Positions 17,710 through 47,656 of a DNA stretch of 64,000 bases are shown here, piece by piece. Below the pieces are notes generated by a model. It was not told where the DNA came from and did no database searches. It was given only the letters and a program-made list of their open reading frames with translations. Made by a program: the position numbers and the translations under genes. Source of the DNA: Terrimonas sp. (GTDB taxonomy: Bacteria > Bacteroidota > Bacteroidia > Chitinophagales > Chitinophagaceae); the NCBI GenBank assembly GCA_016125075.1, contig WGMO01000014.1, positions 124,001 through 188,000 of the forward strand. Reading direction: 5' to 3'. The first letter of the stretch is position 1, and the number at the start of each line of letters is the position of its first letter.

Positions 17710-19371
17710 ATGAAGCGTGGATTCAATAGAAATGTATCATTGCTCCTGTTATTGGTTACGTATAGCATTCCCCTGCTGTCACAACAGGATACGTCAAAGA
17801 AAAAAACAGTCGATATCATTTCGGAATTCAAACCGGTACTCAAGGCATCGGCCAAGATCAATTTCAATCCTTCCCCGGCTCCCAACGATACGGTAAGACC
17901 TGTATTGAATTACAATATACCTAATCAAAACCTCTTATTTGCTTATCAACCGGGTACTTTACAACCCCTGGCATTGAGTATTGATTCTGGCGGTAGATGG
18001 GACAACAGCAGTTATGTGAAGGCGGGATTTGGAAGCCTGAAGTCCCCCCTGGTGGAAGCCGGGTTCTCCCTGGGTGATGGTAAGACCGCCGGTCTGAATA
18101 TTTACGCGAAACATATTTCCGCAGAAGGCAAGCGGGACTTTCAGGATTTTTCTAATACAAAATTTGCCTTAAAGGGCTTTTTGCAAACATCCAAAAACCT
18201 CGAATGGGATGCGACACTCGGCATGCAGCAGGACCGATACAATAAATACGGTTTCATGCCTGCTACGCTGAGCTTCCCCAAAGATTCCATCCAGCAGCGG
18301 TTTCAAACTATAACCGGGGGTCTCGGTTTTCACAATTTAAAACTGACAGATTTCGGGTTATCCTATTCACCCCGGGTAAAGATGGATGTTTTCAGTGATA
18401 ATCATAAGAATAACGAAAGCAATACCTTTATCGATCTGCCGCTTCAAAAAACCATTGGGAAGGTATTTGCCGTCAATCTGGGTGTGACCTTTGACCTGAC
18501 CCGTTTGAAACCGGACAACAAATCCGCCATCAATAATACCTTTTATTATATTTCACCGTCGGTGCTTTTTAAGACGCCCAATATCAATTTGCAGGCGGGT
18601 GTGCGTCCATCCTGGGATAATAAGACCTTTAAGATGTTTCCCAATATCATGGCCGAAATTGGTACCGATGATCAGCGCTTTACATTCCAGGCCGGTTTGA
18701 TCGGTTATCTTCGAAAAACATCTTACCAGTACCTGAGCAGTCAAAACCCCTGGCTGTATGTTCCGGGAATGTTGAATAATTCTGCCATTGAAGAAAGGTA
18801 TGCAGGCTTTAAAGGCTCGGCCGGTGACCATTTGACCTATAGTGCAAAAGTGGGCTTCAATAAGATCACCAATCAGCCCTTGTTCGTCAACGATGATGTG
18901 GACGGAAAATCTTTTTTTGTAATCAATGAACCCGGACTGAATGTACTTCATTTTGGTGCGGAACTGGGCTATACCGTGCAGGAGAAATTTTCATTATTGA
19001 CTGGTCTTAATTTTAACCAGTATACCAAGCTGAAAGAAAATGAAAAGGCATGGGGATTGCTGCCGCTCGAACTCAAAGCGGCCATGCGGTTACAGGTGCT
19101 GAAAGACCTTTGGCTGAAGTCAGACCTTTTTGCCTGGAGCGGACCCCAATATAAAACCATGTCAGGTGGAGCTGATAAGCTCAGCGGCGCTTTTGATCTC
19201 AATGCAGGTCTCGAATTCAGGTTTTCAAAAAGCCTAAACTTCTGGGCGCAGTTCAATAACCTGTTTAATAATACCTACCAGCGCTGGAACCAATATCCTG
19301 TTTACGGATTTAATTTCCAGGCGGGGATTATTTTTTCCTTTGATCAGAAAAATATTTTTACCCAAAAATAA
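17710..19371 (+). CDS. Outer-membrane beta-barrel protein (TonB-receptor-like barrel without plug)
   Basis: A 553-residue protein with a signal peptide (to LLSQQ) and a polar linker containing DIISEFKPVLKASAKI. It then alternates amphipathic strands with aromatic ends to the C terminus (FWAQFNNLFNNTYQRW, FNFQAGIIFSFD). The FNNLFNNTYQRW segment resembles the last strands of TonB-dependent receptors, but there is no recognisable plug domain or TonB box. It is probably an outer-membrane barrel partnered with the upstream TPR protein (30-base gap, same strand). Substrate unknown. Confidence 0.75.
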   Translation: MKRGFNRNVSLLLLLVTYSIPLLSQQDTSKKKTVDIISEFKPVLKASAKINFNPSPAPNDTVRPVLNYNIPNQNLLFAYQPGTLQPLALSIDSGGRWDNSSYVKAGFGSLKSPLVEAGFSLGDGKTAGLNIYAKHISAEGKRDFQDFSNTKFALKGFLQTSKNLEWDATLGMQQDRYNKYGFMPATLSFPKDSIQQRFQTITGGLGFHNLKLTDFGLSYSPRVKMDVFSDNHKNNESNTFIDLPLQKTIGKVFAVNLGVTFDLTRLKPDNKSAINNTFYYISPSVLFKTPNINLQAGVRPSWDNKTFKMFPNIMAEIGTDDQRFTFQAGLIGYLRKTSYQYLSSQNPWLYVPGMLNNSAIEERYAGFKGSAGDHLTYSAKVGFNKITNQPLFVNDDVDGKSFFVINEPGLNVLHFGAELGYTVQEKFSLLTGLNFNQYTKLKENEKAWGLLPLELKAAMRLQVLKDLWLKSDLFAWSGPQYKTMSGGADKLSGAFDLNAGLEFRFSKSLNFWAQFNNLFNNTYQRWNQYPVYGFNFQAGIIFSFDQKNIFTQK

Positions 19372-32831: not shown

Positions 32832-33734
32832 ATGCAATTTGAATGGGAAGGGGTTTTTCCGGCCATGATAACCGCTTTTACGAAAGATGACCAACTGGAT
32901 CTGTCCACATTTGAAAAAAGCATCCAGGCACAGGTGGATGCCGGTGTTCAGGGGATCATTTTGGGTGGTTCCCTGGGTGAAGCCAGCACCCTTACCACGG
33001 AAGAAAAGAAAACACTTGTTTCACTTTCCCTTGAGAAACTAAGGGGAAAGATTCCTGTTATACTCAATATTGCTGAAAGTGCAACGAAAGATGCGCTCGC
33101 ACAAGTGGCCCTCGGTGAAAAATGGGGTGTCGATGGATTTATGCTGTTGCCACCCATGCGTTATAAAAGTGATGACCGGGAAACGGTGGCGTATTTCAAG
33201 ACTGTTGCCGGTGCCACCAGTCTGCCGGTGATGATTTACAACAACCCGGTGGATTATAAGATCAATGTAACACTGGACATGTTTGCCGAACTCGCCACCT
33301 GTCCAAACATTACGGCTATCAAGGAAAGTACCCGGGATGTGACCAATGTAACACGGCTGATCAACCGCTTTGGTAACCGGTTTAAGATCCTTTGTGGTGT
33401 TGACACCTTAGCCATGGAAGAACTTTGTTTGGGCGCCGATGGCTGGGTGGCGGGACTGGTATGTGCATTTCCCAGGGAAACAGTGGCCATTTACAACCTG
33501 GTAAAAAACGGAAAGATCAAGGAAGCTACTGCCATATACAGGTGGTTCATGCCCCTGCTGGAGCTGGATATCCATCCTAAACTTGTACAGTATATCAAAC
33601 TGGCAGCATCTGAAACCGGTACGGGAAGTGAATGGGTCAGGGCGCCCCGTTTGGTGCTGGAAGGAGAAGAAAGAGCAAACATTCTTGCAGTGATCAGGGA
33701 AGGGATTGCCAATAGACCATTATTAGTTGAATGA
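32832..33734 (+). CDS. DapA-family lyase, probable 1-pyrroline-4-hydroxy-2-carboxylate deaminase
   Basis: A 300-residue class I aldolase-fold protein of the dihydrodipicolinate synthase family. It has GGSLGEASTLT (phosphate/carboxylate loop), Tyr136 in MIYNNPVDY and the Schiff-base Lys164 in AIKEST. DapA itself is unlikely, because the following aldehyde dehydrogenase and the nearby hydroxyproline epimerase and dehydrogenase fit the hydroxyproline route, in which this family removes ammonia to give 2-oxoglutarate semialdehyde. A second option is 2-keto-3-deoxy-L-arabonate dehydratase, a same-fold enzyme with the same product; the arabinofuranosidase genes nearby make this plausible. The dehydrogenase begins 12 bases later. 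Confidence 0.8.
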   Translation: MQFEWEGVFPAMITAFTKDDQLDLSTFEKSIQAQVDAGVQGIILGGSLGEASTLTTEEKKTLVSLSLEKLRGKIPVILNIAESATKDALAQVALGEKWGVDGFMLLPPMRYKSDDRETVAYFKTVAGATSLPVMIYNNPVDYKINVTLDMFAELATCPNITAIKESTRDVTNVTRLINRFGNRFKILCGVDTLAMEELCLGADGWVAGLVCAFPRETVAIYNLVKNGKIKEATAIYRWFMPLLELDIHPKLVQYIKLAASETGTGSEWVRAPRLVLEGEERANILAVIREGIANRPLLVE

Positions 33735-33746
33735 TAAAATATATTT

Positions 33747-35234
33747 ATGCGGTTTACTGATGCCACCCCAGATGAAATCAACCAGGTGATGGAACTTGCC
33801 CACCGGGCCTTTGTTGAATACGGGAAGAAAAGCCTCGCGGAAAGGGCTTCCTTCATGAAAGCCATTGCCCTTGCCCTGGAAGAAAGTGGAGATGAACTCA
33901 TCCATACGGCCATGCGGGAAACGAATTTGCCCGAAGCCCGGCTCAGGGGCGAACGGGCAAGAACTATTTTCCAGTTGAATAGTTATGCCGATGCCTGCTT
34001 ACAGGGCAACTGGCTGGAAGTGCGGATTGATACAGCGATCCCCGACAAAAATCCACCAAAACCTGATATCAGGAAGATGCTTGTTCCCCTTGGGCCGGTG
34101 GTGGTTTTTGGGGCCTCTAATTTCCCATTTGCCTATTCCACAGCCGGGGGTGATACGGCCTGTGCTTTTGCGGCTGGTTGCCCGGTCATTGTAAAAGCCC
34201 ATCCGGCCCATGCAGCAACATCACAACTGGTAGCGGATGCCATATTAAAAGCAGCCCGGCAATCTAACATGCCCGAAGGCATATTTGCGCATGTGCATGG
34301 TTTTTCTTTTGAAGTAGGTAAGGCATTGGTGATGCATCCCTTAACCAAGGCTGTCGGTTTTACCGGGTCCTTTACAGGTGGCAAACAATTATTCGATTGG
34401 GCCAGTCAGCGGAAGGAACCTATCCCGGTGTTTGCAGAAATGGGCAGTATCAACCCGGTTTTTTTGTTACCGGATATATTAAAGGATGCCGCAGGGGCAA
34501 CAGCAAAAATGTATGCCGCATCCATTACATTGGGTGTTGGACAATTTTGTACCAATCCAGGACTGATCATTGGCCTGGAAAGTGATGCCTTGCAACAATT
34601 CATACATGACCTGGGAAAAGAAATCCAGCAATCGGCCCCTGCCGCCATGCTGCATCCGGGTATTATAAAAGCATACAAGGAAAATAAAGGGATGGCATTG
34701 CTGCAGGAAGAAGTTCACCTCGTGGCTGAGTCGGAAAAAGAAGTCAGGGACATTGAAGCCTTACCCACCATCGCTACTGCCACCGGCCAGGCATTTTTGC
34801 AGAATCCCTTTTTACACAAAGAAGTGTTTGGACCCTATTCAATTGTCATCCGGTGCAAGGATAAAAATGAGATGATGGCGGTGGCCGCTCATTGTGAGGG
34901 TCAGCTGACCTGTACGATCATGGCGACCGATAATGATATTGAAAATAATATGGACCTGGTGACGGCCGTGAAAAACATTTGTGGAAGGCTGATCATGAAC
35001 GGTGTCCCAACCGGTGTGGAAGTCTGCCTGAGTATGCAGCATGGCGGCCCCTTTCCCGCCACCACAGACAGCCGGTTTACTTCTGTGGGCGCTGATGGCA
35101 TTAAAAGATTTGCACGGCCGCTTGCCTTTCAAAACTGGCCCGGCCAATTCCTGCCCCTGGAATTACAGGATGAGAATGTGATGGGAATCTGGCGGACGGT
35201 AAATAATGAACTGACAAAAGCACCGGTGAAATAA
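33747..35234 (+). CDS. 2-oxoglutarate semialdehyde (2,5-dioxopentanoate) dehydrogenase
   Basis: A 495-residue aldehyde dehydrogenase with general-base Glu231 in FAEMGSINPV and nucleophile Cys268 in GQFCTNPG. The FGASNFPFAYSTAGGDTACA segment and overall pattern match 2-oxoglutarate semialdehyde dehydrogenases. It oxidises the semialdehyde to 2-oxoglutarate with NAD(P), the last step of hydroxyproline degradation and also of oxidative L-arabinose and glucarate routes. It lies 12 bases after the DapA-family gene and is probably cotranscribed with it. The epimerase and oxidative enzymes of the pathway lie beyond an antisense gene. Confidence 0.85.
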   Translation: MRFTDATPDEINQVMELAHRAFVEYGKKSLAERASFMKAIALALEESGDELIHTAMRETNLPEARLRGERARTIFQLNSYADACLQGNWLEVRIDTAIPDKNPPKPDIRKMLVPLGPVVVFGASNFPFAYSTAGGDTACAFAAGCPVIVKAHPAHAATSQLVADAILKAARQSNMPEGIFAHVHGFSFEVGKALVMHPLTKAVGFTGSFTGGKQLFDWASQRKEPIPVFAEMGSINPVFLLPDILKDAAGATAKMYAASITLGVGQFCTNPGLIIGLESDALQQFIHDLGKEIQQSAPAAMLHPGIIKAYKENKGMALLQEEVHLVAESEKEVRDIEALPTIATATGQAFLQNPFLHKEVFGPYSIVIRCKDKNEMMAVAAHCEGQLTCTIMATDNDIENNMDLVTAVKNICGRLIMNGVPTGVEVCLSMQHGGPFPATTDSRFTSVGADGIKRFARPLAFQNWPGQFLPLELQDENVMGIWRTVNNELTKAPVK

Positions 35235-35252
35235 TCTTTGTAACAACGCTCT

Positions 35253-36527
35253 TCAATAGGAAACGCTTAGTTGAAGACTGTCTTCTTTTCTGTGCCGTAT
35301 CACGAACCAGCCGGTGATAAGGGTGGCTGCAATAAAATAGGTAGCCAGCAGGTAATTGATGCCCGGTATCATATTCCCGGCACCGAACCAATCATTTTTT
35401 TGGTATAAGATATACAGCCCTGCCATATTTTTCAGGGATTCAAATACAATGGCATAGGGGTTCCTGTCCATCAGTTCCGTATAAGCGTATACGGTCAGAA
35501 AGATAAAACCTCCGTAAATAAAAATACCCGGGCTGCCGATGCTGGCTATGTTGCCAAAAAAATAGCTGATCATCAGGAGTGTCATGGTGATCTGAATCCA
35601 GGACCAGGTATGTAAGGCCCGGGAAGCTTTCGTGTCGTATTTCTGAAAATGGTAAGGATCTTCGATTTTTTTGACCGGGTATTGTTCAGCCACATCTGCC
35701 GGCCGCCACCCCGTGGGCATAAACCATATTCTGAGTTTATCCCAAAAATTTTTAGTGCGCCAGGCATCTTTTATCAGCAGCCAGGCATGCTGGAAATTGA
35801 TCCTGATGGGATTCCAGGTGGCCGCAGGTCTTGTGATGCCATAAACCGGTGGCTTATCGGGTAATTCTTCCTGGAATGTTCCGAATAATTTATCCCAGAT
35901 GATAAATATCTGGGAGAGGTTCTTATCGAGGTATTCGGGGTTAATGGCATGATGAACCCGGTGATGGGAAGGGGTGACAATGATCTTTTCCAGGAACCCC
36001 ATTTTTTTAATGTGTTGCGTATGATACCAGAACTGTGCAAACAGCTGCAAAGGGGCCACGACGGCAATGACCTGCACTGGAACTCCCAGGATGGCAGCGG
36101 GTAATAATAAGAAGGTGAAAAATTCAAAAATGGATGAAATACTTTGGCGCAGGGCGCAGGCAAGATTGAAATCTTCACTGCTGTGGTGAATGATATGGCG
36201 GTTCCAGAAAATATTAATGTGGTGGCTCCACCGGTGCACCCAATATCCCTGGAAATCGATGGCGATAAATGCGATGACATATACCAGCCAGGAGGCCCTG
36301 ATCTGGAAAACAGCAAGATGATCCACCATCCAGCCATAACTCAGGATGCCGATACTTAACCCTAAGACGTCTTTGGTGACATTCGTGATGCCGGAACTCA
36401 GGCTGGAGATCATATCCAAATTCCTCACCGTATCTTTCCCTTTGTACCAGCCATACCATTTTTCAAACAGTACAAGCGCCAGGAATGCCGGCATGGCAAT
36501 GAGCAGTATCTTTCCGTAGGTTTCCAT
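35253..36527 (-). CDS. Sterol desaturase/fatty acid hydroxylase family membrane protein
   Basis: A 424-residue polytopic protein with the eight-histidine di-iron pattern: HRWSHH, the IIHHSSEDF histidines and HHRVHH. This superfamily hydroxylates or desaturates lipids at the membrane; alkylglycerol monooxygenase-like members have a similar C-terminal membrane extension. It lies antisense within an otherwise plus-strand catabolic cluster, 18 bases after the dehydrogenase stop (convergent) and divergent from the epimerase. No obvious role in hydroxyproline use; probably an inserted or independently regulated gene. Confidence 0.85.
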   Translation of the reverse strand: METYGKILLIAMPAFLALVLFEKWYGWYKGKDTVRNLDMISSLSSGITNVTKDVLGLSIGILSYGWMVDHLAVFQIRASWLVYVIAFIAIDFQGYWVHRWSHHINIFWNRHIIHHSSEDFNLACALRQSISSIFEFFTFLLLPAAILGVPVQVIAVVAPLQLFAQFWYHTQHIKKMGFLEKIIVTPSHHRVHHAINPEYLDKNLSQIFIIWDKLFGTFQEELPDKPPVYGITRPAATWNPIRINFQHAWLLIKDAWRTKNFWDKLRIWFMPTGWRPADVAEQYPVKKIEDPYHFQKYDTKASRALHTWSWIQITMTLLMISYFFGNIASIGSPGIFIYGGFIFLTVYAYTELMDRNPYAIVFESLKNMAGLYILYQKNDWFGAGNMIPGINYLLATYFIAATLITGWFVIRHRKEDSLQLSVSY

Positions 36528-36696
36528 TTGACAGCAATTACCCTGTAAAATTATTAAAAATATTGGCCGGGAAGCCGGGAAATACTTTCATTGCAGGGTT
36601 CCTGTTACCAGGCAGGAATTCGGATTCACAAAAGGAAAGCGGCAAACAGCAGCCCGATTCATGTTTGGGTTTTGAATCTCTGTAACTTTATCGAAC

Positions 36697-37752
36697 ATGA
36701 TAACAAATCCTATTGCAGTAAATGCCCCGCAGTTTTCAAAGACCCGGTTAGGCGGTTCAGTGTTTCATTGTATCGATGCCCATACCTGTGGAAACCCGGT
36801 CAGGGTGGTGGCCCTTGGGGGGCCGGGATTGGAAGGCCTCAATATGAGTGAGAAAAGACAGCATTTTATCCGGGAATATGACTGGATCCGGAAGGGATTG
36901 ATGTTTGAACCCCGTGGCCATGATATGATGAGCGGAAGCATTTTATATCCGCCCCATGACCGGCAGAACGATGTGGCTGTCCTTTTTATCGAAACCAGTG
37001 GTTGCCTGCCCATGTGTGGGCATGGGACCATTGGTACAATCACAGTGGCCATCGAAGAAGGTATGATTGAACCCCGGATTCCGGGTACGGTTAAAATGGA
37101 AACACCCGCCGGTATTATAGAAGTGCAGTATGAAATGGAAAACGGGAAATGTAAAAAAGTGCGGTTGACAAATGTGGTTTCATTTCTTCATTCGGAGGGA
37201 TTAACAGCCATTTGCCCCGACCTGGGTGAGTTGGTGATTGATGTATCCTATGGAGGAAATTTTTATGCCATCATTGATGTGCAGGAAAATTTCAGGGGAT
37301 TGGAACATTACAGTGCCGACAGGCTTATACAATGGGCAAGGGCTTTGCGGCAACAGATCAATGAAAAATATGAATTTGTACATCCCGGTGACAGTACCAT
37401 CCGGGGTTGCAGTCATATCTTATGGACGGGCGCGGTGTTGAATAAACAGGCAACTGCCAGGAATGCGGTTTTCTACGGTGACAAAGCGATCGACCGGTCT
37501 CCCTGTGGTACGGGTACTTCGGCAAGAATGGCCCAGTGGTATGCAAAAGGCAAACTGAAAAAAGGGGACCTGTTTATTCATGAAAGTATCATCGGCAGTA
37601 CATTTACCGGAAGGATAGCGGAAGAAACGATGATGGAAGGCCGCCCGGCTATCCGTCCATCGATCGAAGGATGGGCAAAGATCATCGGTTATAACAGTAT
37701 CAGTATTGACCCCGATGATGATCCTTATGCTTATGGTTTCCAGGTACTGTGA
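36697..37752 (+). CDS. 4-hydroxyproline 2-epimerase (proline racemase family)
   Basis: A 351-residue protein with both catalytic cysteines of the proline racemase family: Cys107 in PMCGHGTIG and Cys270 in RSPCGTGTSA. Retention of both cysteines argues for an epimerase or racemase rather than trans-3-hydroxyproline dehydratase, where one is replaced. The linked D-amino acid dehydrogenase, DapA-family and semialdehyde dehydrogenase genes point to trans-4-hydroxy-L-proline to cis-4-hydroxy-D-proline conversion. The N terminus has about 20 extra residues before GGSVFHCIDAHTCGNP. It starts the right-hand half of the cluster, 28 bases before the glycosidase region. Confidence 0.88.
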   Translation: MITNPIAVNAPQFSKTRLGGSVFHCIDAHTCGNPVRVVALGGPGLEGLNMSEKRQHFIREYDWIRKGLMFEPRGHDMMSGSILYPPHDRQNDVAVLFIETSGCLPMCGHGTIGTITVAIEEGMIEPRIPGTVKMETPAGIIEVQYEMENGKCKKVRLTNVVSFLHSEGLTAICPDLGELVIDVSYGGNFYAIIDVQENFRGLEHYSADRLIQWARALRQQINEKYEFVHPGDSTIRGCSHILWTGAVLNKQATARNAVFYGDKAIDRSPCGTGTSARMAQWYAKGKLKKGDLFIHESIIGSTFTGRIAEETMMEGRPAIRPSIEGWAKIIGYNSISIDPDDDPYAYGFQVL

Positions 37753-37842
37753 ACGAACTCATCAGTAAAATGCTGAATCATGGACAGAAAGTACAAGGGT
37801 GCGACGCAAGCAAAGCACCATCAACATTTAAAAGCCGGTAAT

Positions 37843-39807
37843 ATGAAAAAAATATTTTTCTTTTTGATGGCAGCCTTATCACTGACCCGCTTGAAGGGGC
37901 AGGAACCCATCCGGAAAATTGAACCCATCAATTTTTCGCAGGTCAATATTACCGATGAATTCTGGAAACCCAAGATCGATAAGGTAGCCACCAAAACACT
38001 CGAAGCCTGTATTTACCAGACGGAAATTGCCACGCCCCGGATCAGGAATTTCCTGAAAGTGGCCAGGGGGAAAGGGGAGGAGCATGAGGGCATATTTTAT
38101 GATGACAGCGATGTTTTTAAAGCACTGGAGGCAATGGCCTATTCCTTAAAGACGCATCCGAATGCAGCCATGGAAAAAAAATGTGATGAATGGATCGATA
38201 TTATTGCAGCTGCCCAGCAGCCGGATGGATATCTGAATACCTGGTATACCTTGAAAGGATTGGAAAACAGGTATACGGACATGAGTATGCATGAAGATTA
38301 TAATGCCGGACATATGATAGAAGCTGCTGTGGCCTATTTTGATGTTACCGGCAAGAGAAAATTCCTGGATGTCTGTATTCGTTGGGCCGACCAGTTTGAC
38401 CGTTTGTTCGGGCCGGGGAAGCGGCATTGGGTAACGGGTCATGAAGAACTGGAGCTGGCACTGGTGAAATTGTATAAAGTAACCAACAACCAAAAATACC
38501 TGAAGTTGGCGGACTGGCTGCTCAGTGAAAGGGGGCATGGTTATGCAAAAGGGTATACATGGACCGACTGGAAAGACACAGCCTATGCGCAGGACCTGTT
38601 ACCGGTCAAAGAACAGACAGAAATTACCGGTCATGCAGTGAGGGCCATGTACCTGTATACCGGAACAGCAGACGTTGCCGCACAAACCGGAGATACCGCC
38701 TATTTGAAAGCCATGAAAAAAGTTTGGGAGGACGTGGTGTACAGGAACATGTATATCACAGGGGGCATTGGATCAGCAGGAAGCAATGAAGGCTTTACTG
38801 TGGATTACGACCTGCCCAATGAACAGGCCTATTGTGAAACCTGTGCCAGTGTGGGTATGGTTTTCTGGAACCAGCGGATGAATGCACTCACCGGTGATGC
38901 CGCCTATATCGATGTGCTCGAAAGAAGCCTGTATAATGGCGCACTGGATGGATTAAGCTTAAGCGGTGACCGTTTCTTTTATGGCAACCCGCTTGCCTCG
39001 AGGGGGCAGCATGCCCGGAGAGAATGGTTCGGTACCGCCTGTTGCCCGGCCAATATCGCCAGGCTGGTTACTTCGCTTGGGAATTATATTTATGCAAAAT
39101 CGGATGATGCTTTGTATGTGAACCTCTTTGTGGGCAGTAATACAATGATCCCCTTGAAAAAAACCAACCTGGCGGTTCATCTGGAAACTGATTATCCCTG
39201 GGAAGGAAATATTAAACTCAAGTTGGATCCGGATAAGCCGGCAAAATTTAAGGTGTATATAAGGGTGCCCGGTTGGGCTCAAAATAATGAAGTTCCGGGA
39301 GGATTATATAATGCTACCATTGATATTTCAGAACCCTCCTATTATATTGCCGTGAACGGCAAAAAATTTGATGCTGTTCTTAAGAACGGTTATGTGATCA
39401 TTGACAGGGCCTGGCAAAAAGGAGACCAGGTTGAAATGAGACTGCCGGTAATGACAAAAGTCATTGAAGCCCGGAAAGAACTCAAACAGGATAATAACCG
39501 TATTGCCCTGCAGCGGGGACCACTGGTCTATTGTGTGGAAGGAGCGGATAATCAGGGAAAGGCCTGGAATATCATCGTACCCCCCCAAACAGATTTCCGG
39601 GTGATGGATTACAAAGTGTTGGGAGAACCGGTTAAGGCCATCCAGGCAGTAGTACCAGTTGTAGTGGTGAATGAAGAAGGGACTGCCCTCAAAACAGAAA
39701 AAAGAAATATCATTGCCATACCCTATTACACCTGGGCCAACAGGGGAAAAAATGAAATGCAGGTTTGGTTGCCCACAAAGATTTCAGATGTGAAAATCAA
39801 TTATTGA
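37843..39807 (+). CDS. GH127-type beta-L-arabinofuranosidase (DUF1680), exported
   Basis: A 654-residue protein from the ATG at 37843, with a signal peptide ending near LKGQE. An (alpha/alpha)6 catalytic domain is followed by beta domains. The zinc and nucleophile site known from Bifidobacterium HypBA1 is present: Glu332 and Cys334 in CETCASVG, and Cys400-Cys401 in GTACCPAN. In HypBA1 the corresponding cysteine is the nucleophile that releases L-arabinose from beta-arabinofuranosyl chains on plant hydroxyproline. Lying between hydroxyproline-catabolic genes strengthens that substrate. A longer frame back to 37780 would put residues before the signal peptide. The stop overlaps the next start in a TGATG junction. 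Confidence 0.88.
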   Translation: MKKIFFFLMAALSLTRLKGQEPIRKIEPINFSQVNITDEFWKPKIDKVATKTLEACIYQTEIATPRIRNFLKVARGKGEEHEGIFYDDSDVFKALEAMAYSLKTHPNAAMEKKCDEWIDIIAAAQQPDGYLNTWYTLKGLENRYTDMSMHEDYNAGHMIEAAVAYFDVTGKRKFLDVCIRWADQFDRLFGPGKRHWVTGHEELELALVKLYKVTNNQKYLKLADWLLSERGHGYAKGYTWTDWKDTAYAQDLLPVKEQTEITGHAVRAMYLYTGTADVAAQTGDTAYLKAMKKVWEDVVYRNMYITGGIGSAGSNEGFTVDYDLPNEQAYCETCASVGMVFWNQRMNALTGDAAYIDVLERSLYNGALDGLSLSGDRFFYGNPLASRGQHARREWFGTACCPANIARLVTSLGNYIYAKSDDALYVNLFVGSNTMIPLKKTNLAVHLETDYPWEGNIKLKLDPDKPAKFKVYIRVPGWAQNNEVPGGLYNATIDISEPSYYIAVNGKKFDAVLKNGYVIIDRAWQKGDQVEMRLPVMTKVIEARKELKQDNNRIALQRGPLVYCVEGADNQGKAWNIIVPPQTDFRVMDYKVLGEPVKAIQAVVPVVVVNEEGTALKTEKRNIIAIPYYTWANRGKNEMQVWLPTKISDVKINY

Positions 39808-42164
39808 TGTCTATAAGATTCCTCTTTCTTTTTCTTTTCTTACTGGCAAAGGTTGCGTTCACGCAGTCCTATGTCCCGGAACTGAAGGATCAAAGACTCC
39901 GGGTGCAAAATTCCATACCGGTAAAAGCCTATTCCTTTGATCTTCGAGATGTAAGGCTTACGGAAAGCCCATTCCGGAAAGCCCAGTCGCTGGATGCCGC
40001 CTACCTTTTATCCCTGGAACCCGATCGATTATTACATCGTTTTCATGCCTTTGCAGGCCTGCCGGTGAAGGATACTGTATATGGCGGTTGGGAACAGGAA
40101 GGCTTGTCGGGACATACGCTGGGTCATTATTTATCGGCTTGTTCGATGATGTATGCCAGTACCGGAGACCCGGCATTTAAAAAAAGAGTGGAATATATTG
40201 TCCATGAACTGGACCGATGCCAGCAGGCCCGTAAAACCGGTTATGTCGGTGCCATTCCTGGTGAAGATTCCATTTTTGGAAAACTGTCGAGAGGGGTTAT
40301 ACAATCGGGCGGTTTTGACCTGAACGGCGGGTGGAGCCCCTGGTATACGGTGCATAAAGTGATGGCAGGGCTGGTGGATGCCTACCTGTATTGCAATAAC
40401 CAGGAAGCGCTGGGTATTGTTACGGGCATGGCTGACTGGACTTACCAAACGGTATTTCATTTGTCTGATTCCCTAAGGTTAAAAATGCTGAATTGCGAAT
40501 ATGGAGGGATGAATGAGGTACTGGCCAATATATATGCCATCACCGGCAATAAAAAATATCTTGATCTGTCCTATAAATTCTATGATGAGTTTGTGATGGG
40601 CCAACTGGCAAAGCAGGTCGACCCCATGCCGGGCAAACATTCCAATACCAATGTACCCAAAGCCATTGGCAGCGCCAGGCAATTTGAACTCACCGGCAAC
40701 AAAAGAGACCAGACCATTGCAGGCTTTTTCTGGAGAACCATGGTGTATCACCACAGTTATGTAATTGGAGGGAACAGTAATTATGAGTATTGTGGCCAGC
40801 CGGATTCTTTGAATGACCGTTTAAGCGATAATACCTGTGAAACCTGTAATACCTACAATATGCTGAAACTGACCAGGCACCTTTTTGCCTGGGAGCCCTC
40901 CGCCGCCCTGATGGATTATTATGAGCGGGCGCTGTATAACCATATACTGGCTTCACAAAACCCGGAGAATGGCATGATGACTTATTTTGTTCCGCTCAGG
41001 ATGGGTACCAAAAAAGAGTTCAGTACTCCGTTTTCCACCTTCACCTGCTGTGTCGGCAGCGGAATGGAAAATCATGCCAAGTATGCAGAACAGATCTATA
41101 GCACGGACGGAAAAAATACTTTATATGTAAACCTTTTTATTCCATCTGTCCTGAACTGGAAGGATAAAGATGTACAGGTGGAACAATTGAATTTTATTCC
41201 TGCAACCAGCGAAGTGAAATTGGAGGTTCATTGTAAAACAAAAAAATTCTTTCAGTTAAAGATCCGTAAGCCCTCCTGGGCAACCCGTAATCCGGTCATC
41301 CGGGTTAACGGTAATGCCGTGAAAACAGATGGGGACCCTGCAGGATACCTATCTGCCGAAAGAAACTGGGAGGATGGTGATATTGTGACCCTTGACCTGG
41401 GAATGGATATTTATACAGAGGCCATGCCCGATAATCCCAACAGGATTGCTATTAAATACGGACCTGTTGTACTGGCAGGTCAATTAGGAAAAGAAAGACC
41501 CGACCCGGTTTATGGAACACCTGTGCTGATGACAGATGACCGGAATGCAAAAGACTGGGTACAACCGGTAGCCGGTGAAAATCTTGGTTTTTTGATGAAA
41601 GCTGTTGGCAAACCCTTTGATGTGGTGCTGCGGCCTTTTTATCAGACCTATGACCAGTTTTACAGTGTGTACTGGGATTACTTTACACCCGCAGAATGGT
41701 TAGCAAGAGAAAATGAATATGAAGCGGAGAAAAAGCGACAATCGGAAATTGCGGCCCGCACCATCGATGATTTCCGGATTGGGGAAATGCAACCGGAACG
41801 GGATCATCATCTCAGGGCGGGTGAAAGAAGTTATGTCAGTGATGCCCTGGGCCGGTTGGGTAGAGAGGCCAGGAGCAATGATTATTTTTCTTTTGAGATG
41901 AAATTGGAGAAAGGAATAAAAATGAGTCTGGTGCTGACCTATCTCGGGGATGATAAGGGAAGAAAATTCGATATCAATATTGACGGCGTTTTATTCAAAA
42001 CCATTGATTGGGAGGGAGGTGCCACCGGGAGGTTTTATGATGAGGTCTATCCATTACCTGAACTATTGGTGAAAGATAAGGAGCGGATCACGATCAGCAT
42101 CCTTGCCAATCATGGAAAAACAGCGGGCAGGATCTTCAATGTTAAAGTGATTAAGGATCATTAA
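39807..42164 (+). CDS. Second DUF1680 arabinofuranosidase, GH146-like, exported
   Basis: A 785-residue protein with a signal peptide (MSIRFLFLFLFLLAKVAFTQ). The all-helical catalytic domain carries EYGGMNEVLANIYAITGN, Glu345 and Cys347 in CETCNTYN, and Cys414-Cys415 in FTCCVGSG, the same metal/nucleophile arrangement as the upstream gene. Its N terminus, the GWSPWYTVHK motif and the C-terminal beta domain (GDDKGRKFDINIDG onward) look more like GH146 relatives than GH127, so the pair may act on different linkages. The start overlaps the first glycosidase's stop by one base, so expression is coupled. Nine bases separate it from the dehydrogenase gene. Confidence 0.85.
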   Translation: MSIRFLFLFLFLLAKVAFTQSYVPELKDQRLRVQNSIPVKAYSFDLRDVRLTESPFRKAQSLDAAYLLSLEPDRLLHRFHAFAGLPVKDTVYGGWEQEGLSGHTLGHYLSACSMMYASTGDPAFKKRVEYIVHELDRCQQARKTGYVGAIPGEDSIFGKLSRGVIQSGGFDLNGGWSPWYTVHKVMAGLVDAYLYCNNQEALGIVTGMADWTYQTVFHLSDSLRLKMLNCEYGGMNEVLANIYAITGNKKYLDLSYKFYDEFVMGQLAKQVDPMPGKHSNTNVPKAIGSARQFELTGNKRDQTIAGFFWRTMVYHHSYVIGGNSNYEYCGQPDSLNDRLSDNTCETCNTYNMLKLTRHLFAWEPSAALMDYYERALYNHILASQNPENGMMTYFVPLRMGTKKEFSTPFSTFTCCVGSGMENHAKYAEQIYSTDGKNTLYVNLFIPSVLNWKDKDVQVEQLNFIPATSEVKLEVHCKTKKFFQLKIRKPSWATRNPVIRVNGNAVKTDGDPAGYLSAERNWEDGDIVTLDLGMDIYTEAMPDNPNRIAIKYGPVVLAGQLGKERPDPVYGTPVLMTDDRNAKDWVQPVAGENLGFLMKAVGKPFDVVLRPFYQTYDQFYSVYWDYFTPAEWLARENEYEAEKKRQSEIAARTIDDFRIGEMQPERDHHLRAGERSYVSDALGRLGREARSNDYFSFEMKLEKGIKMSLVLTYLGDDKGRKFDINIDGVLFKTIDWEGGATGRFYDEVYPLPELLVKDKERITISILANHGKTAGRIFNVKVIKDH

Positions 42165-42173
42165 GCATAATCT

Positions 42174-43418
42174 ATGGGTAAAATCCTTGTGGTCGGTGGA
42201 GGTGTTATCGGTCTGAGTTGCGCCTATTATCTGGAGAAAGCAGGATATGAAGTTACGGTGCTGGATAATACCGGCATGGATGATGGCGCTTCCTATGGGA
42301 ATGCCGGTCATGTAGTACCCAGTCATTTTGTACCGCTTGCTGCTCCGGGCATTGTTGCACAGGGTTTACGCTGGATGCTGAACGCATCAAGCCCTTTTTA
42401 TATTAAACCAAGGTGGAATACAGACCTGTTTCGGTGGGGACTTCAATTCTGGCGTAGTTCCGGGGCCGATACCATGAAAAGAAATATTCCAGATTTACAC
42501 CGTTTGTTATCCTTCAGCCGTGAATTATTTGAGGATTGGCAGGCTGATCTGGGGAATTCATTTTCCATGACATCGAAGGGTATATTGATTGCTTATAAAA
42601 CGCCTGAAAGCGAAAGGCACGAGGCCTTTCTCGCCGCTGAAGCCGGGAAAATGGGGCTGCATGCCCGGATCCTGTCTGCCCGGGAGGTACAGGACCTTGA
42701 AAGTTCCACCGTCTTTGAGGTAAGAGGGGGAGTACTTTACGAAGAAGATGCCCATCTGCAACCCGGTTTATTGATGGCATCACTGAAAAAATACCTGGAT
42801 GAAAAAGGGGTGACCTTACTTTCAAATACAGCAGTACAGGGGTTTCAGCATTCAGGTAATCGCATCCATGCTGTTCTTACAGACAGTGGGGAATACTTTG
42901 CTGATGAATTTGTGCTGGCCAATGGGGCATGGATGCCGGCCCTGGCTGGAGAATTAGGAATTAACCTGCTCATGCAGGGTGGAAAAGGATATAGCATCAC
43001 CTATAAAAATTTTCTACCGCAACTGCAATATCCTGCGATCCTGGTAGATCACCGGGTAGTCACCACTCCAATGGGAAATAATCTCCGTTTGGCCGGCACC
43101 ATGGAGATAAATGGCCTTTCATCACCCATCATGCCCAAAAGGGTCAATGCGATTGTGGCGTCAGTAAAAAGTTATTATCCTGAGCTTGACCTTCGTTTAA
43201 ACGGAGAGCAGGTGATCTGGAGTGGCATCCGTCCACTGAGCCCAGATGGGTTACCCTATATCGGACGCCCTTCAAACTATGAAAATTGTGTGATGGCAGG
43301 TGGTCATGCCATGCTTGGTCTTTCTTTGGCCACCGGAACAGGTAAACTGGTAGAGGAGATCATCAGCCATAAAAAATTGTCGCTCTCCACCCTTGCCTTT
43401 TCACCGGAACGTTTTTAA
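42174..43418 (+). CDS. FAD-dependent D-amino acid dehydrogenase, probable D-hydroxyproline dehydrogenase
   Basis: A 414-residue DAO-family flavoprotein. The dinucleotide motif is VGGGVIGLSCAYYLE at the N terminus. GAWMPALAGELG and the C-terminal PYIGRPSNYEN with GGHAMLGLSLATGTGKLV match DadA-like dehydrogenases. In a hydroxyproline cluster, this family oxidises cis-4-hydroxy-D-proline to 1-pyrroline-4-hydroxy-2-carboxylate, feeding the DapA-family gene at 32832. No separate small ferredoxin-like subunits are present, so it is the single-subunit type. A general D-amino acid dehydrogenase cannot be excluded. Confidence 0.85.
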   Translation: MGKILVVGGGVIGLSCAYYLEKAGYEVTVLDNTGMDDGASYGNAGHVVPSHFVPLAAPGIVAQGLRWMLNASSPFYIKPRWNTDLFRWGLQFWRSSGADTMKRNIPDLHRLLSFSRELFEDWQADLGNSFSMTSKGILIAYKTPESERHEAFLAAEAGKMGLHARILSAREVQDLESSTVFEVRGGVLYEEDAHLQPGLLMASLKKYLDEKGVTLLSNTAVQGFQHSGNRIHAVLTDSGEYFADEFVLANGAWMPALAGELGINLLMQGGKGYSITYKNFLPQLQYPAILVDHRVVTTPMGNNLRLAGTMEINGLSSPIMPKRVNAIVASVKSYYPELDLRLNGEQVIWSGIRPLSPDGLPYIGRPSNYENCVMAGGHAMLGLSLATGTGKLVEEIISHKKLSLSTLAFSPERF

Positions 43419-43476: not shown

Positions 43477-44355
43477 ATGAATTATTTATTTTCCTTGATT
43501 TTCCTTTCTCTAATGCTGACGGCTTGTAATAACGCTGCAAAAGAGCCTGCAGCTGTCAATACGAATGAAGCGTTAAGTGCCCCGGTAGAACATACACTTG
43601 AAAAAAAATGGGAAACCGATACGGTATTGAAGGTTCCTGAGTCTGTTTTATTTGACGGCGGGCGCCAGGTCTTGTATGTTTCTAATATCGATGGAGAACC
43701 CTGGGCCGCGGATGGAAAGGGTTCTGTCGGAAAACTGGGACTGGATGGAACGATCATCAATGCGGATTGGGTCACGGGTTTGAATGCACCCAAAGGCCTG
43801 GGTATGTTTGGGGGTAGATTATATGTAGCAGATCTTACCGACCTGGTGGTCATTGACATCGCGAAAGGAGCGATTGAAAAAAAGATTGTAGTGGCCGGTG
43901 CGGAAGGATTAAATGATGTTACTGTCGATAAACAGGGAGTGGTATATGTGTCGGATTCAAAGCAGAAAAAGATTTTCCGTATTGAAAATGATCAGCCACA
44001 ACTTTTTCTGGATAGTTTACAGGGTCCCAATGGCGTACTGGCCCGGGGGGATGATTTTTTTATACTGGACAAGGGGGCTTTGTACAAAGTTGGCAGTGAT
44101 AAATCGCTTACCAAAATAGCAGATGGGATGGAAGGTGGAACCGATGGGGTTGAGAATGTGGAGGGCAATGATTTCCTGGTTTCCTGCTGGTCGGGAACCA
44201 TCTGGTATGTATCCGAAAATGGCAGCAAACAATTACTGCTGGATACTTCAAAGGAACAGAAGAATACGGCTGATATCGGGTTTGACCCTGTTTCTAAAAC
44301 GGTTTATGTGCCGACATTCTTTAAGAAATCTGTAGTGGCATATGCGGTAAAGTAA
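43477..44355 (+). CDS. SMP-30/lactonase-like beta-propeller lipoprotein
   Basis: A 292-residue lipoprotein (signal ending LTAC) with a six-blade propeller pattern. Possible metal ligands of the SMP-30 family can be placed: Glu in KVPESVLFD, Asn in GPNGVL and Asp in GGTDGVEN. SMP-30 proteins include gluconolactonases and L-arabinonolactonases, although many exported members have no proven activity. It lies 58 bases after the D-hydroxyproline dehydrogenase on the same strand. If a lactonase, it could act on an arabinose oxidation product, but it is exported and no arabinose dehydrogenase is nearby. A binding or structural role is equally possible. Confidence 0.65.
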   Translation: MNYLFSLIFLSLMLTACNNAAKEPAAVNTNEALSAPVEHTLEKKWETDTVLKVPESVLFDGGRQVLYVSNIDGEPWAADGKGSVGKLGLDGTIINADWVTGLNAPKGLGMFGGRLYVADLTDLVVIDIAKGAIEKKIVVAGAEGLNDVTVDKQGVVYVSDSKQKKIFRIENDQPQLFLDSLQGPNGVLARGDDFFILDKGALYKVGSDKSLTKIADGMEGGTDGVENVEGNDFLVSCWSGTIWYVSENGSKQLLLDTSKEQKNTADIGFDPVSKTVYVPTFFKKSVVAYAVK

Positions 44356-44415: not shown

Positions 44416-46014
44416 ATGAATTGCACAGCCCAGCGGATTCCATACAGGCAGACCCAAAAGTTTACACCCATCGTACTGGATTATATTGATCAGATGGATT
44501 CCTTACGCCCTTTTTACGGGTATCCGCCTTCCCGGCAAGGGGTGCAAAAAGCAGTGGAACAGAAAAAGCAGGTACCGGTGAACCGCACTCTGCTGGTAGA
44601 ACAGTTACAGCTGCAGTATCAGGATATAACCACCAGTGAAAAAGTAAAAGAAAATATCAGGAAGCTGGCAGACCCAAACACTTTTACTATCACCACTGCA
44701 CACCAGCCGAATATACTAACCGGCCCCCTTTATTTCCTCTATAAGATCATCCACGCCATTAAACTGGCCAATGATTTATCCGCTGCTGATGAACAGCATG
44801 CTTATGTCCCTGTTTTTTACATGGGTTCGGAGGATGCGGATCTGGAAGAGTTGGGCCATCTGTATATCAATGGTGAAAAACTGAACTGGGAGACCCGGCA
44901 AAAAGGCGCTGTAGGCAGGATGAAAATTGATAAAGCCTTTCTCGCGATCATCCACAGGATCCGGGGAGAAGTGAAGGTGGAGCCCCATGGTGCAGCAATT
45001 GCCGAACTGATGGAAACCAGTTTCCGGGAAGGGGTGACGGTTCAAATGGCTACATTTCATTTTTTGAACAGTTTGTTTGCTGACAGGGGTTTGATTGTGC
45101 TGATCCCGGATAACCCTGCCTATAAGGAAACCCAGCATCAGGTTTTTAAAGACGACCTGCTCCGGCAGGTGGCATCCGGTATCGTTGAAAAGACTTCTGA
45201 AAAACTGGGTCTTGCTTATAAACTACAGGCTACTCCCCGTGATATCAATCTTTTTTATTTGAAAGACGACCTGCGTAACCGGATCGAAAAGGTTGGAGAC
45301 CAGTATGTAATTCATGATACGGATTTACGGTTTAGTGAGGAGGAAATACTGCAAGAACTGGATAATCATCCTGAACGCTTTAGTCCGAATGTGATACTTC
45401 GGGGAATTTTCCAGGAAACCCTGCTGCCCAATATTATATTTATCGGTGGCGGGGGAGAAATCGCTTATTGGTTACAGTTAAAAGACCTGTTTGAATATTA
45501 TGGAATTCCTTACCCGGTGCTGGTGGTCAGGAACTCCTTCCTGCTGATAGAAGAAAAATGGAATACCCGTATCGCCAGGACAGGATTTACAGCGGAAGAT
45601 TATTTTTTAACCGGGCAGGAACTATTGAACAGGCTGGTGCAACGGGAAACTCATAAAGAATTATCCCTGAAGGGTTCCTTATCCGAAGCGGAATCGGTTT
45701 TTGACAAGATCAGGGACCAGGCAAAATCGATTGACCCGACACTTGCACAACACACCGAAGCATTAAAGGTGCAGGCCGTAAAAAAACTCCGGGAACTGGA
45801 GAAAAAAATGCTGCGCACCGAGAAGAAAAAATTTTCTGCCGCTGAGCGACAAATCAATGCCCTGCTGGAACATCTCTTTCCGGGCAATGGCCTCCAGGAG
45901 CGAAAGGATAATTTCATTCCCTACTATGCTAAATGGGGTAAGGCTTTGCTGGATACGCTCTATGACCAATCACTGGGCTTTGAACAGGAATTTGTTATGC
46001 TTGTGGAGAGTTGA
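44416..46014 (+). CDS. bshC: Bacillithiol biosynthesis cysteine-adding enzyme BshC
   Basis: A 532-residue protein with the BshC layout. It has TITTAHQPNILTGPLYFLYKI (nucleotide-binding-fold start), the VPVFYMGSEDADLEELGH segment, GGGGEIAYWLQL, and a helical coiled-coil region near 430-490 (KVQAVKKLRELEKKM). BshC joins cysteine to glucosaminyl-malate, giving bacillithiol. Many Bacteroidota make bacillithiol, and the partial YtxJ gene at the left edge belongs to the same thiol system. bshA and bshB are not in the window. It lies 60 bases after the SMP-30-like gene. Confidence 0.92.
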   Translation: MNCTAQRIPYRQTQKFTPIVLDYIDQMDSLRPFYGYPPSRQGVQKAVEQKKQVPVNRTLLVEQLQLQYQDITTSEKVKENIRKLADPNTFTITTAHQPNILTGPLYFLYKIIHAIKLANDLSAADEQHAYVPVFYMGSEDADLEELGHLYINGEKLNWETRQKGAVGRMKIDKAFLAIIHRIRGEVKVEPHGAAIAELMETSFREGVTVQMATFHFLNSLFADRGLIVLIPDNPAYKETQHQVFKDDLLRQVASGIVEKTSEKLGLAYKLQATPRDINLFYLKDDLRNRIEKVGDQYVIHDTDLRFSEEEILQELDNHPERFSPNVILRGIFQETLLPNIIFIGGGGEIAYWLQLKDLFEYYGIPYPVLVVRNSFLLIEEKWNTRIARTGFTAEDYFLTGQELLNRLVQRETHKELSLKGSLSEAESVFDKIRDQAKSIDPTLAQHTEALKVQAVKKLRELEKKMLRTEKKKFSAAERQINALLEHLFPGNGLQERKDNFIPYYAKWGKALLDTLYDQSLGFEQEFVMLVES

Positions 46015-46204: not shown

Positions 46205-47656
46205 ATGCACTGGATTGACGCCGGGATATTTATTTTTTATATGTTAGTGTTGTTAGGTGTGGGGGTATATTTTCTGCGAAAAAATAAAAACGCGGAAGAC
46301 TTTTTTGTCAGTGGCAGAAACATGACCCGTTGGCATATTGGACTTTCTGTTGTTGCCACCGATGTAGGAGGCGGTTTTTCAATAGGATTGGGCGGGCTTG
46401 GTTTCATGATGGGTTTATCGGGTTCGTGGATGCTGTTTACAGGACTGATTGGTGCATGGGTAAGCGCAGTGTTGCTCATACCCCGTATACATCCCCTGGG
46501 AAAAGAGATCAGGTTATTTACTTTTCCACAGGTGTTTGAACATTTTTTTAATAAAAAAGTGGCCCTGGTAGCAGGCATCATTTCTGCAATCGGGTATCTT
46601 GGTTTTACCAGCTCGCAGATACTCGCGGGTGCCAAGCTGGCTTCAGCTTCTTTTGTATCCCTGGATATGGAGACAGCCCTGATTGTAATGGGAGCTATAA
46701 CGGTGGGGTATACTGTTTTGGGCGGGATGAATGCTGTTATTTATACCGACACCATTCAATGGATTGTGCTGATCAGCGGTTTGTGCTTTATTGGTATCCC
46801 TTTGTCCTATCATGCGATTGGAGGTATGGATGCCATCCGTAATACCCTGAGCCGGGATTTTCTTTCGCTGGGAAATGTAACCTGGCAAACACTCGTGAAC
46901 TGGGGGGTCACGATCATCCCCATCTGGTTTGTTGGAATGACCCTGTACCAGCGGATCTATGCCAGCCGCGATGTAAAAGAAGCCAGGAAGGCCTGGTTTA
47001 TTGCGGGATTGTTTGAATGGCCTGTGATGGCCTTTATGGGGGTGGCACTGGGTTTGTTTGCAAGAGTGGCAGCAGAACAGGGTATGTTTGCACAGCTGGG
47101 TTACCCGACCGCTATGAGCATGGATCCTGAAATGGGTTTACCGGTCCTGCTCAGGACAATCCTTCCGGTGGGACTGATGGGAGTGATGATGGCGGTATAT
47201 TTTTCTGCTATTTTATCAACAGCCGACAGCTGTTTAATGGCTGCTTCGGGAAATTTGCTGACTGATATTGTGAGCAGGTTTTTTCATATTGATCATGACA
47301 GCAAAAGGATGTTGCACCTCTCACAGGTATTCACGCTGGTATTAGGTCTCTTGTCCATCCTGTTGGCTTCTTTCATGGGCAATGTTTTGGAACTGATGCT
47401 ATATTCTTATGCTTTTATGGTATCGGGATTGTTCGTACCCCTGATCGCTGCGTTATTCTTTAAGAAAAGGAATGCCAGGGCTGCTATGATGGCGATGATA
47501 GCAGGAGGCGCGACAACAGTCCTGCTCAGCATCTTTATTAAAAAGTTGCCATTGGGTCTGGATGCAAACCTATTTGGGATTTCGGTCTCCCTGTTTGTAT
47601 TTATTTCAGTGAGTTATTGCTGGCCGACAGCATCTGTTAATTTAAAAGTAAAATAA
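46205..47656 (+). CDS. SLC5-type sodium:solute symporter
   Basis: A 483-residue protein with about 12-13 membrane segments. SSF-family features include EDFFVSGRNMTRWHIGLSVVATD near the N terminus, GGMNAVIYTDTIQW, and AAVYF-type segment MMAVYFSAILSTADSCLMAASGN, where the Ser-Thr pair contributes to the Na2 sodium site. It imports a small solute with sodium. Downstream amino-acid genes suggest an amino acid or N-acyl amino acid. Proximity to the hydroxyproline cluster makes proline/hydroxyproline another option. Its stop overlaps the next ATG (TAATG), so the operon is translationally coupled. Confidence 0.88.
   Translation: MHWIDAGIFIFYMLVLLGVGVYFLRKNKNAEDFFVSGRNMTRWHIGLSVVATDVGGGFSIGLGGLGFMMGLSGSWMLFTGLIGAWVSAVLLIPRIHPLGKEIRLFTFPQVFEHFFNKKVALVAGIISAIGYLGFTSSQILAGAKLASASFVSLDMETALIVMGAITVGYTVLGGMNAVIYTDTIQWIVLISGLCFIGIPLSYHAIGGMDAIRNTLSRDFLSLGNVTWQTLVNWGVTIIPIWFVGMTLYQRIYASRDVKEARKAWFIAGLFEWPVMAFMGVALGLFARVAAEQGMFAQLGYPTAMSMDPEMGLPVLLRTILPVGLMGVMMAVYFSAILSTADSCLMAASGNLLTDIVSRFFHIDHDSKRMLHLSQVFTLVLGLLSILLASFMGNVLELMLYSYAFMVSGLFVPLIAALFFKKRNARAAMMAMIAGGATTVLLSIFIKKLPLGLDANLFGISVSLFVFISVSYCWPTASVNLKVK

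Follow-up and report, generated by a model that had tools for sequence, protein, structure and literature searches.

Bacteria degrade trans-4-hydroxy-L-proline in four steps ending in 2-oxoglutarate, catalysed by 4-hydroxyproline 2-epimerase (HypE), D-hydroxyproline dehydrogenase, a deaminase of the DapA family and 2-oxoglutarate semialdehyde dehydrogenase. Here we describe a locus of Terrimonas sp. (contig WGMO01000014.1) in which genes assigned to these four types, three of them as probable members, surround two glycosidase genes. It lies in a stretch of 64,000 nucleotides, positions 124,001 to 188,000 of that contig, which is called the window below and whose numbering is used unless another contig is named. 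The gene content, the motifs, the gene order and the recurrence of the combination in related genomes are matters of observation. Judged from these sequences, the locus is probably a utilisation operon for O-arabinosylated trans-4-hydroxy-L-proline.

Extensin carries the chain Araf-beta1,2-Araf-beta1,2-Araf-beta1-Hyp (Araf, arabinofuranose; Hyp, hydroxyproline; PMC10850190). The same source describes a GH127 enzyme, HypBA1, that degrades Araf-beta1,2-Ara, and three enzymes of GH146: XeHypBA1 of Xanthomonas, for which Araf-beta1-Hyp is the main substrate, Bll4HypBA1 of Bifidobacterium, which cleaves Araf-beta1-linked Hyp, and BT0349, whose substrates are arabinan oligosaccharides and beta1,2-arabinobiose and whose gene lies in a locus for rhamnogalacturonan I (RG-I). 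A GH127 enzyme acting on Araf-beta1,2 and a GH146 enzyme acting on Araf-beta1-Hyp could therefore together cleave the beta-linkages as far as hydroxyproline itself, the amino acid on which HypE starts. Membership of GH146 alone leaves the substrate unsettled, because BT0349 works on arabinan oligosaccharides.

Gene content of the locus

The following genes make up the cluster.

32832..33734, plus strand: HypD, DapA family, probable pyrroline-4-hydroxy-2-carboxylate deaminase (PF00701, 197 bits)
33747..35234, plus strand: HypH, probable 2-oxoglutarate (alpha-ketoglutaric) semialdehyde dehydrogenase (PF00171; best solved relatives 3v4c and 1eyy)
36697..37752, plus strand: HypE, 4-hydroxyproline 2-epimerase (NF010578, 568 bits, cut-off 376; Cys107, Cys270, Ser79, His240)
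37843..39807, plus strand: GH127, predicted exported beta-L-arabinofuranosidase (PF07944, PF20736 and PF20737 above cut-off; solved relatives 6ex6, 4qjy, 3wkw)
39807..42164, plus strand: GH146 type, predicted exported beta-L-arabinofuranosidase (PF07944, PF20736 and PF20620 above cut-off; best solved relative 5opj)
42174..43418, plus strand: DadA-like FAD oxidoreductase, probable cis-4-hydroxy-D-proline dehydrogenase (PF01266, 219 bits)

The Pfam domains thus run DHDPS, Aldedh, Pro_racemase, two PF07944 proteins and DAO. This is the arrangement given in an earlier note made from the letters of the window, which had placed two exported DUF1680 glycosidases between epimerase and oxidase and the DapA-family enzyme and aldehyde dehydrogenase upstream; its coordinates hold. 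The note had also called the catabolic cluster complete. For HypE this stands, as it passes an NCBIfam cut-off; the DapA-like protein, the dehydrogenase and the oxidase are assigned by homology and context. HypE has the catalytic pair Cys107/Cys270 and, in the alignment, Ser79 rather than Phe at site 1 and His240 at site 4, the pattern of HypE and unlike that of proline racemase (PMC4364671). Two further models of the same name, NF052296 and NF010577, do not reach their cut-offs with it. The other three proteins reach none, the best 25 models being considered for the dehydrogenase and the oxidase: the DapA-like protein, a member of the DapA superfamily, scores 180 bits with TIGR00674 (cut-off 206), the dehydrogenase 88 bits with NF042993 (cut-off 770) and the oxidase 254 bits with the D-amino acid dehydrogenase model NF001933 (cut-off 383). 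The nearest solved relatives of the dehydrogenase are an aldehyde dehydrogenase (NADP+), 3v4c, and an aldehyde dehydrogenase, 1eyy.

The two DUF1680 proteins belong to two different families. One is a GH127 protein, exceeding the cut-offs of PF07944, PF20736 and PF20737 with 343, 79 and 87 bits and scoring 553 bits against 6ex6, 496 against 4qjy and 347 against 3wkw, which we take to be HypBA1 of Bifidobacterium longum. The other is GH146-like, with 492 bits against 5opj, presumably the GH146 enzyme BT0349, 231 against 8k7x, 214 against 8k7y and 64 against the best GH127 structure. The likely start of the GH127 gene is the ATG at 37843, which yields a putative signal peptide, within a frame open from 37780; the GH146 gene starts at the ATG at 39807, sharing one base with the GH127 stop. 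By eye, both proteins have an N-terminus resembling a signal peptide. The Glu-x-Cys and Cys-Cys zinc/nucleophile motifs, called intact in the earlier note, are present in both, and the acid/base Glu of GH127 is kept too. In the GH127 protein ETC occupies residues 333-335 and CC residues 401-402 (numbered from 37840); the E...ETC pattern occurs in all 58 GH127 rows, and the CC motif takes the form CCP in 50 of them and is present in the other 8. In the GH146 protein the ETC and CC motifs of the Cys3-Glu zinc site are present, and among 20 other GH146 rows E-S/T-C is found in all 20 (17 by pattern and three, as ESCC, by eye) and CC-x-G likewise in 20. Activity as an aceric acid hydrolase on rhamnogalacturonan II (RG-II) was rejected, the GH127 and GH146 proteins scoring 432 and 81 bits with NF049879 (cut-off 950). 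The cleavage of Araf-beta1-Hyp described for GH146 enzymes of Xanthomonas and Bifidobacterium (PMC10850190) suits the locus still better than the analogy to HypBA1 drawn in the earlier note.

A search of the whole genome (3.92 Mb, 32 contigs) found just two PF07944 genes, both in the cluster. The genes for HypE, GH127, GH146 and the oxidase are consecutive, and the one-base overlap before the GH146 gene and the nine-base gap after it suggest that HypE through the oxidase gene form one transcript. The cluster as a whole is not one unbroken transcript, since a minus-strand gene of the fatty-acid hydroxylase family (35253-36527) splits it. Between 30 and 48 kb, no Bacteroidota-type promoter with the TTTG/TANNTTTG pattern lies upstream of the cluster genes; the three matches to the pattern (plus strand at 43779 and 47057, minus strand at 30575) are all intragenic.

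Conservation of the linkage

GH127, GH146 and HypE were searched for in the same sample of 195 genomes of the family Chitinophagaceae. Linkage was counted on the best candidates per genome among the matches listed, weaker rows being left out: 48 GH127 orthologues, 70 GH127 rows ranking directly below them (to E ~1e-126), 42 members of a GH146 clade and 36 weaker GH146 paralogues. Also excluded were a few fragments, namely second halves in G025, G059 and G134 and the broken additional copy of G176, together with the second epimerase matches of G035 and G102. On this basis HypE is found in 94 of the 195 genomes, and GH127 or GH146 lies within 10 kb of it in 39 of these 94, and within 20 kb in 42. 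Conserved synteny, the check set beforehand in the earlier note, is therefore strong. Pairs within 10 kb number 53, about 70 times the ~0.8 that chance would give with 160 listed genes and genomes taken to be 4.8 Mb each, and chance adjacency was accordingly rejected. The counts are not independent, because the genomes are related, and absence near HypE is uncertain in places because some HypE genes sit on short contigs.

The linkage is spread unevenly over the glycosidases. The GH127 orthologue clade comprises the gene in the window and 47 others at 55-76% identity, the rows below it having 49% or less (the broken extra copy in G176 excepted); 22 of the 48 lie within 10 kb of HypE. In the second GH127 lineage this holds for 11 of the 70 rows counted, one of these pairs, in G183, involving only a broken epimerase fragment of 44% identity. 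Of the GH146 clade, 20 of 42 members are so placed and none of the 36 counted paralogues; within HypE genomes the comparison is 20 of 37 against 0 of 31 (Fisher p 2.6e-7, kinship not corrected). A general tie of any GH146 gene to the hydroxyproline cluster is thus unsupported. In G030 (contig C22, L191) a distant DUF1680 gene, 26-30% identical to those of the window and outside the counted rows, lies ~6.5 kb from HypE. The absence of paralogues consequently holds for the 36 counted rows only, and the gene in G030 is possibly a third kind of partner.

The remaining catabolic genes accompany HypE with or without glycosidases. Within 10 kb, HypD is found in 27 of 37 glycosidase-linked loci versus 36 of 43 others, HypH in 26 of 37 versus 31 of 43 and the oxidase gene in 30 of 37 versus 37 of 43. 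The cluster is carried by an isolate of the family, Lacibacter luteus. Of 80 named GH127 relatives forming a second set, many of which lie on short contigs, 23 have a HypE homologue within their stretch. In a draw of 296 genomes from the whole phylum, HypE was found in 61 (E up to 1e-120) and the GH146 probe in 31 (E up to 1e-150); by eye, the two lie within 10 kb of each other in four, one of which (G329) is outside the family.

Evolution of the cluster and fuller loci in relatives

A genome of the same genus (G021, L181) carries HypD, HypH, an opposite-strand hydroxylase, HypE, the oxidase, an SMP-30-like gene and BshC in the order of the window. There the gap between HypE and oxidase is 14 bases with no glycosidase in it, and the two glycosidases of the window occupy exactly that gap. 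A GH146 gene and a GH127 gene of the second lineage stand side by side elsewhere in the G021 genome. In other genomes this gap is filled by different cargo: an aldose epimerase in L182 and L224, a GH5-like gene in L206 and an oxidoreductase in L208. When GH127 proteins are placed on a tree, the label of linked or unlinked changes seven times, at least five of these changes being forced by well-supported branches, so the linkage arose or disappeared repeatedly; the tree does not distinguish gain from loss. The label 'linked' also admitted HypD or HypH within 6 kb, the second lineage is represented only by rows picked as linked, and nine of the 58 rows, lacking flanking sequence, are unlabelled.

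Several relatives have fuller loci. One from another order is that of Sabulibacter ruber SYSU D00434 (Cytophagales, Hymenobacteraceae; L228), where glycosidases and hydroxyproline operon fall inside 20 kb in the order TonB receptor (SusC, cut at the edge), SusD, GH146, GH127, SNF sodium symporter, M1 peptidase, S9 peptidase, divergent AraC-type gene, HypD, HypH, HypE and oxidase. G329, from another family of the same class (L227), has GH146, an AraC-type gene, oxidase, HypE, HypH, HypD, M1, M24 and a second GH146. G179 (L180) has an AraC-type gene, HypD, HypH, HypE, GH27, an amino-acid permease, DUF5695, GH51, aminopeptidase P (M24), GH146 and GH43, the GH27 and GH43 named from a Pfam scan and the remaining genes by likeness to scanned representatives; the stretch shows no oxidase gene. 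Finally, G192 (L173) has HypH, HypE, oxidase, DUF885, an S9 peptidase, GH146, GH127 and GH51. Genes for peptidases of prolyl type, for an alpha-arabinofuranosidase or alpha-galactosidase, or for amino-acid transport stand beside some of the linked loci. Extensin serines bear a single alpha-linked galactose (PMC4908140), which the GH27 enzyme of G179 could remove.

Other genes recur in these surroundings. A DUF5695 protein of ~920 residues lies near HypE and GH146 in L178, L179 and L180, two of these loci having GH51 alongside as well; possibly it is an enzyme of this system that has yet to be described. A large exported protein with VPS10/BNR repeats is found in L031, L033, L034, L036 and L068, in four between HypH and HypE and in one downstream of the oxidase. 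A trio of GH51, GH127 and GH146 occurs in metagenome-assembled genomes of Cytophagales, Cyclobacteriaceae or Bacteroidetes (L117, L119, L121, L124), with no hydroxyproline gene in those stretches.

Proposed function and alternatives

Were the locus a utilisation operon as proposed, its substrates would be peptides or free Hyp-arabinosides from cell-wall hydroxyproline-rich glycoproteins. Of the two exported enzymes, GH127 would remove arabinofuranose in beta-1,2 linkage, leaving GH146 to take the last arabinofuranose, joined directly to hydroxyproline. Peptidases encoded elsewhere, or in the same cluster in some relatives, would release hydroxyproline, which would enter the cell to be epimerised by HypE and then oxidised by the DadA-like enzyme. 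The DapA-like enzyme would deaminate the oxidation product and the dehydrogenase would give 2-oxoglutarate. The arabinose would go to the separate arabinose genes of the genome, where an arabinose isomerase lies at position 39133 of contig C18, near an aldose epimerase homologue and, by eye, a kinase-like gene. Joint clustering would let the cell use both the sugar and the amino acid, as carbon and nitrogen, of a single glycan-protein linkage.

The loci of relatives raise a broader proposal: that Bacteroidota possess a class of loci dedicated to the glycopeptides of hydroxyproline-rich wall proteins. A complete locus would capture material at the outer membrane, strip it of alpha- and beta-arabinose (GH51/GH43, GH127, GH146) and of serine-linked galactose (GH27), cleave the chain with prolyl peptidases, take up amino acids and oxidise hydroxyproline to 2-oxoglutarate, with an AraC-type regulator alongside. 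Such loci would have arisen more than once, each time through the gain of beta-arabinofuranosidases by a hydroxyproline cluster already in existence. The window would be a reduced version, Sabulibacter ruber and G179 fuller ones. We see the chances for and against this as evenly balanced.

Several observations weigh against these proposals. The tight operon of the window has no transporter, peptidase or recognised regulator gene of its own, and its GH146 protein has as closest solved relative an arabinan/RG-I enzyme, BT0349 (PMC10850190). No GH127 or GH146 lies within 20 kb in 52 of the 94 HypE genomes, and 12 of the 48 genomes with a GH127 orthologue have no HypE match, both among the matches listed. 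For these reasons the hydroxyproline cluster is the commoner unit, to which the glycosidases look like an addition. Outside the family, only one of 55 HypE genomes in the phylum-wide draw is linked, with GH146 as sole probe and by eye. The accessory genes were compared between the 37 linked loci (L180, just beyond 10 kb, being left out) and 43 of the 52 loci with no such gene within 20 kb: four of 27 families reach a nominal p<0.05 and none after correction. Across the 80 HypE loci no accessory family of peptidases or glycosidases is common, and loci without GH127 or GH146 also bear GH51 and GH27 (L211) or GH43 and M24 (L188).

The alternative that fares best shares the mechanism and is compatible with a utilisation operon, differing in the natural substrate: instead of land-plant extensin this would be the wall of green algae, with its hydroxyproline-rich glycoproteins, or else plant lectins or signalling peptides that bear arabinose. 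We regard it as possible, though not as the likelier case. Volvocine algae carry Hyp-arabinosides, and the record titles of several related loci suggest lakes or reservoirs. Algal extensins and arabinogalactan proteins (AGPs) have been proposed as food of GH127-bearing Latescibacteria (PMC4454575). Against an algal source in particular, the genes do not discriminate it from a plant one, and isolates such as Lacibacter luteus have the cluster. Soil is the habitat of that species. Land-plant extensin and algal wall protein are thus both candidates. The earlier note had spoken of the use of extensin glycopeptides, a reading that is partly supported: the synteny is strong, but nothing favours extensin over other arabinosylated hydroxyproline proteins, and the two enzymes may instead be arabinan or AGP enzymes.

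Alternatively, the two sets of genes might merely share a diet. GH127 and GH146 would act on pectic arabinan, RG-I, RG-II or AGPs, the hydroxyproline genes would use free or collagen-derived hydroxyproline, and both foods would arrive with plant or algal debris. Besides the arabinan-derived oligosaccharides and beta1,2-arabinobiose used by BT0349 (PMC10850190), this would accommodate the same GH127 standing with GH51 and GH146 away from any hydroxyproline gene in four stretches (L117, L119, L121, L124). The genome has three GH51 matches, two of them at 12026-14613 of C18 and all on contigs other than that of the cluster, and GH43 matches in four frames. Arabinan use is therefore possible, and the argument from a lack of arabinan enzymes failed. 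The GH51, arabinose isomerase and SusD matches sit apart from both predicted beta-arabinofuranosidases, however, and a shared diet does not readily account for the absence of the 36 counted GH146 paralogues from the vicinity of HypE. Nor was a beta-galactanase or pectin-backbone enzyme named among the 33 neighbour proteins of relatives, all representatives, that were scanned with Pfam. We consider this explanation unlikely and continue to prefer a utilisation operon for arabinosylated hydroxyproline. That the HypE-oxidase gap is a mere insertion spot, its glycosidases functionally untied to hydroxyproline, might be read from its varied cargo but is very improbable, given that members of these GH127 and GH146 clades turn up in varied orders, strands and positions, and in another bacterial order, at ~70 times the expected frequency.

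Neighbouring genes

Three further genes stand within or just downstream of the cluster.

35253..36527, minus strand: fatty-acid hydroxylase/sterol-desaturase family protein, recurrent passenger (PF04116)
43477..44355, plus strand: SMP-30/NHL-type protein with a lipobox-like LTAC, possible last operon gene (PF08450, 24.3 bits, just under the cut-off of 26.3)
44416-46014, plus strand: BshC homologue, downstream of the SMP-30/NHL-like gene

Genes of the first family are near HypE in 24 of 80 loci, on the opposite strand wherever the order was displayed, and BshC homologues in 22. The SMP-30-like gene starts 58 bases past the oxidase gene, and its like is near HypE in six of 37 glycosidase-linked and five of 43 other loci (11 of 80). 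An oxidative arabinose route by way of this gene was discarded: the genes scanned include no arabinose dehydrogenase, and C18 encodes an arabinose isomerase. Beyond BshC lie a PutP-like SSF symporter (46205-47656) and an M20-family peptidase (from 48091), and an S9-family peptidase is encoded elsewhere in the window, at 3005-5860. The symporter was rejected as a conserved part of the cluster, being near HypE in none of the 80 loci. A SusC/SusD pair guessed from gene sizes at 14647-19371 proved wrong, the products being a TPR-repeat protein and a protein without a Pfam match. No SusD was found in the window, all 13 SusD matches of the genome lying elsewhere; SusC was not searched for by family.

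Comparison with known systems

The earlier note knew of no described locus of this composition, and none was found. Full-text searches, which left most subscription papers outside, found no paper joining 4-hydroxyproline epimerase with an arabinofuranosidase and none joining hydroxyproline, Chitinophagaceae and extensin. Among the matches listed, the literature on GH127, GH146, extensin and hydroxyproline catabolism treats separate halves, in the parts available, and the available main text of a study of proline-racemase neighbourhoods (PMC4113996) has no glycos-, arabino-, extensin, plant, Bacteroidetes or collagen terms. The parts are thus known and the combination is apparently undescribed.

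Among the tough components of plant and green-algal walls are extensins and other proteins of that kind rich in hydroxyproline, and the bacterial enzymes for them that were found in print are described as taking arabinose. Use of the amino acid as well, as proposed here, would explain the return of protein carbon and nitrogen to the food web. HypE beside GH127 or GH146 would serve as a gene marker for counting such bacteria in metagenomes, and the linkage gives a testable prediction of function for one GH146 clade and two GH127 lineages.

With the HypBA1-HypBA2-HypAA cluster of B. longum the window shares a GH127 gene, whose product there acts on the arabino-oligosaccharides of hydroxyproline-rich glycoproteins (PMC10850190, PMC6085000). 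That cluster has in addition a GH121, a GH43 and an ATP-binding-cassette transporter and takes arabinose, with no mention of hydroxyproline catabolism in the parts available (PMC6085000, PMC7263609), whereas the window has a GH146 beside the GH127 and the amino-acid pathway in the cluster itself. The XeHypBA1/XeHypBA2/XeHypAA system of Xanthomonas euvesicatoria has in common with it a GH146 enzyme, XeHypBA1, acting on Araf-beta1-Hyp (PMC10850190). A putative prolyl oligopeptidase pseudogene adjoins xehypAA (PMC6085000), and the available text of that source makes no link to hydroxyproline degradation and has no catabolism, cluster or transporter wording. The bacterial pathway for trans-4-hydroxy-L-proline likewise has its four enzyme types clustered, three of which are putative assignments in the window. 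We know of no glycosidase that forms part of it. Finally, the stretch from Sabulibacter ruber resembles SusC/SusD-type loci of Bacteroidota in opening with the end of a TonB receptor followed by SusD. The window differs from such loci in being without SusD, and its target would include the amino acid of the glycoprotein linkage.

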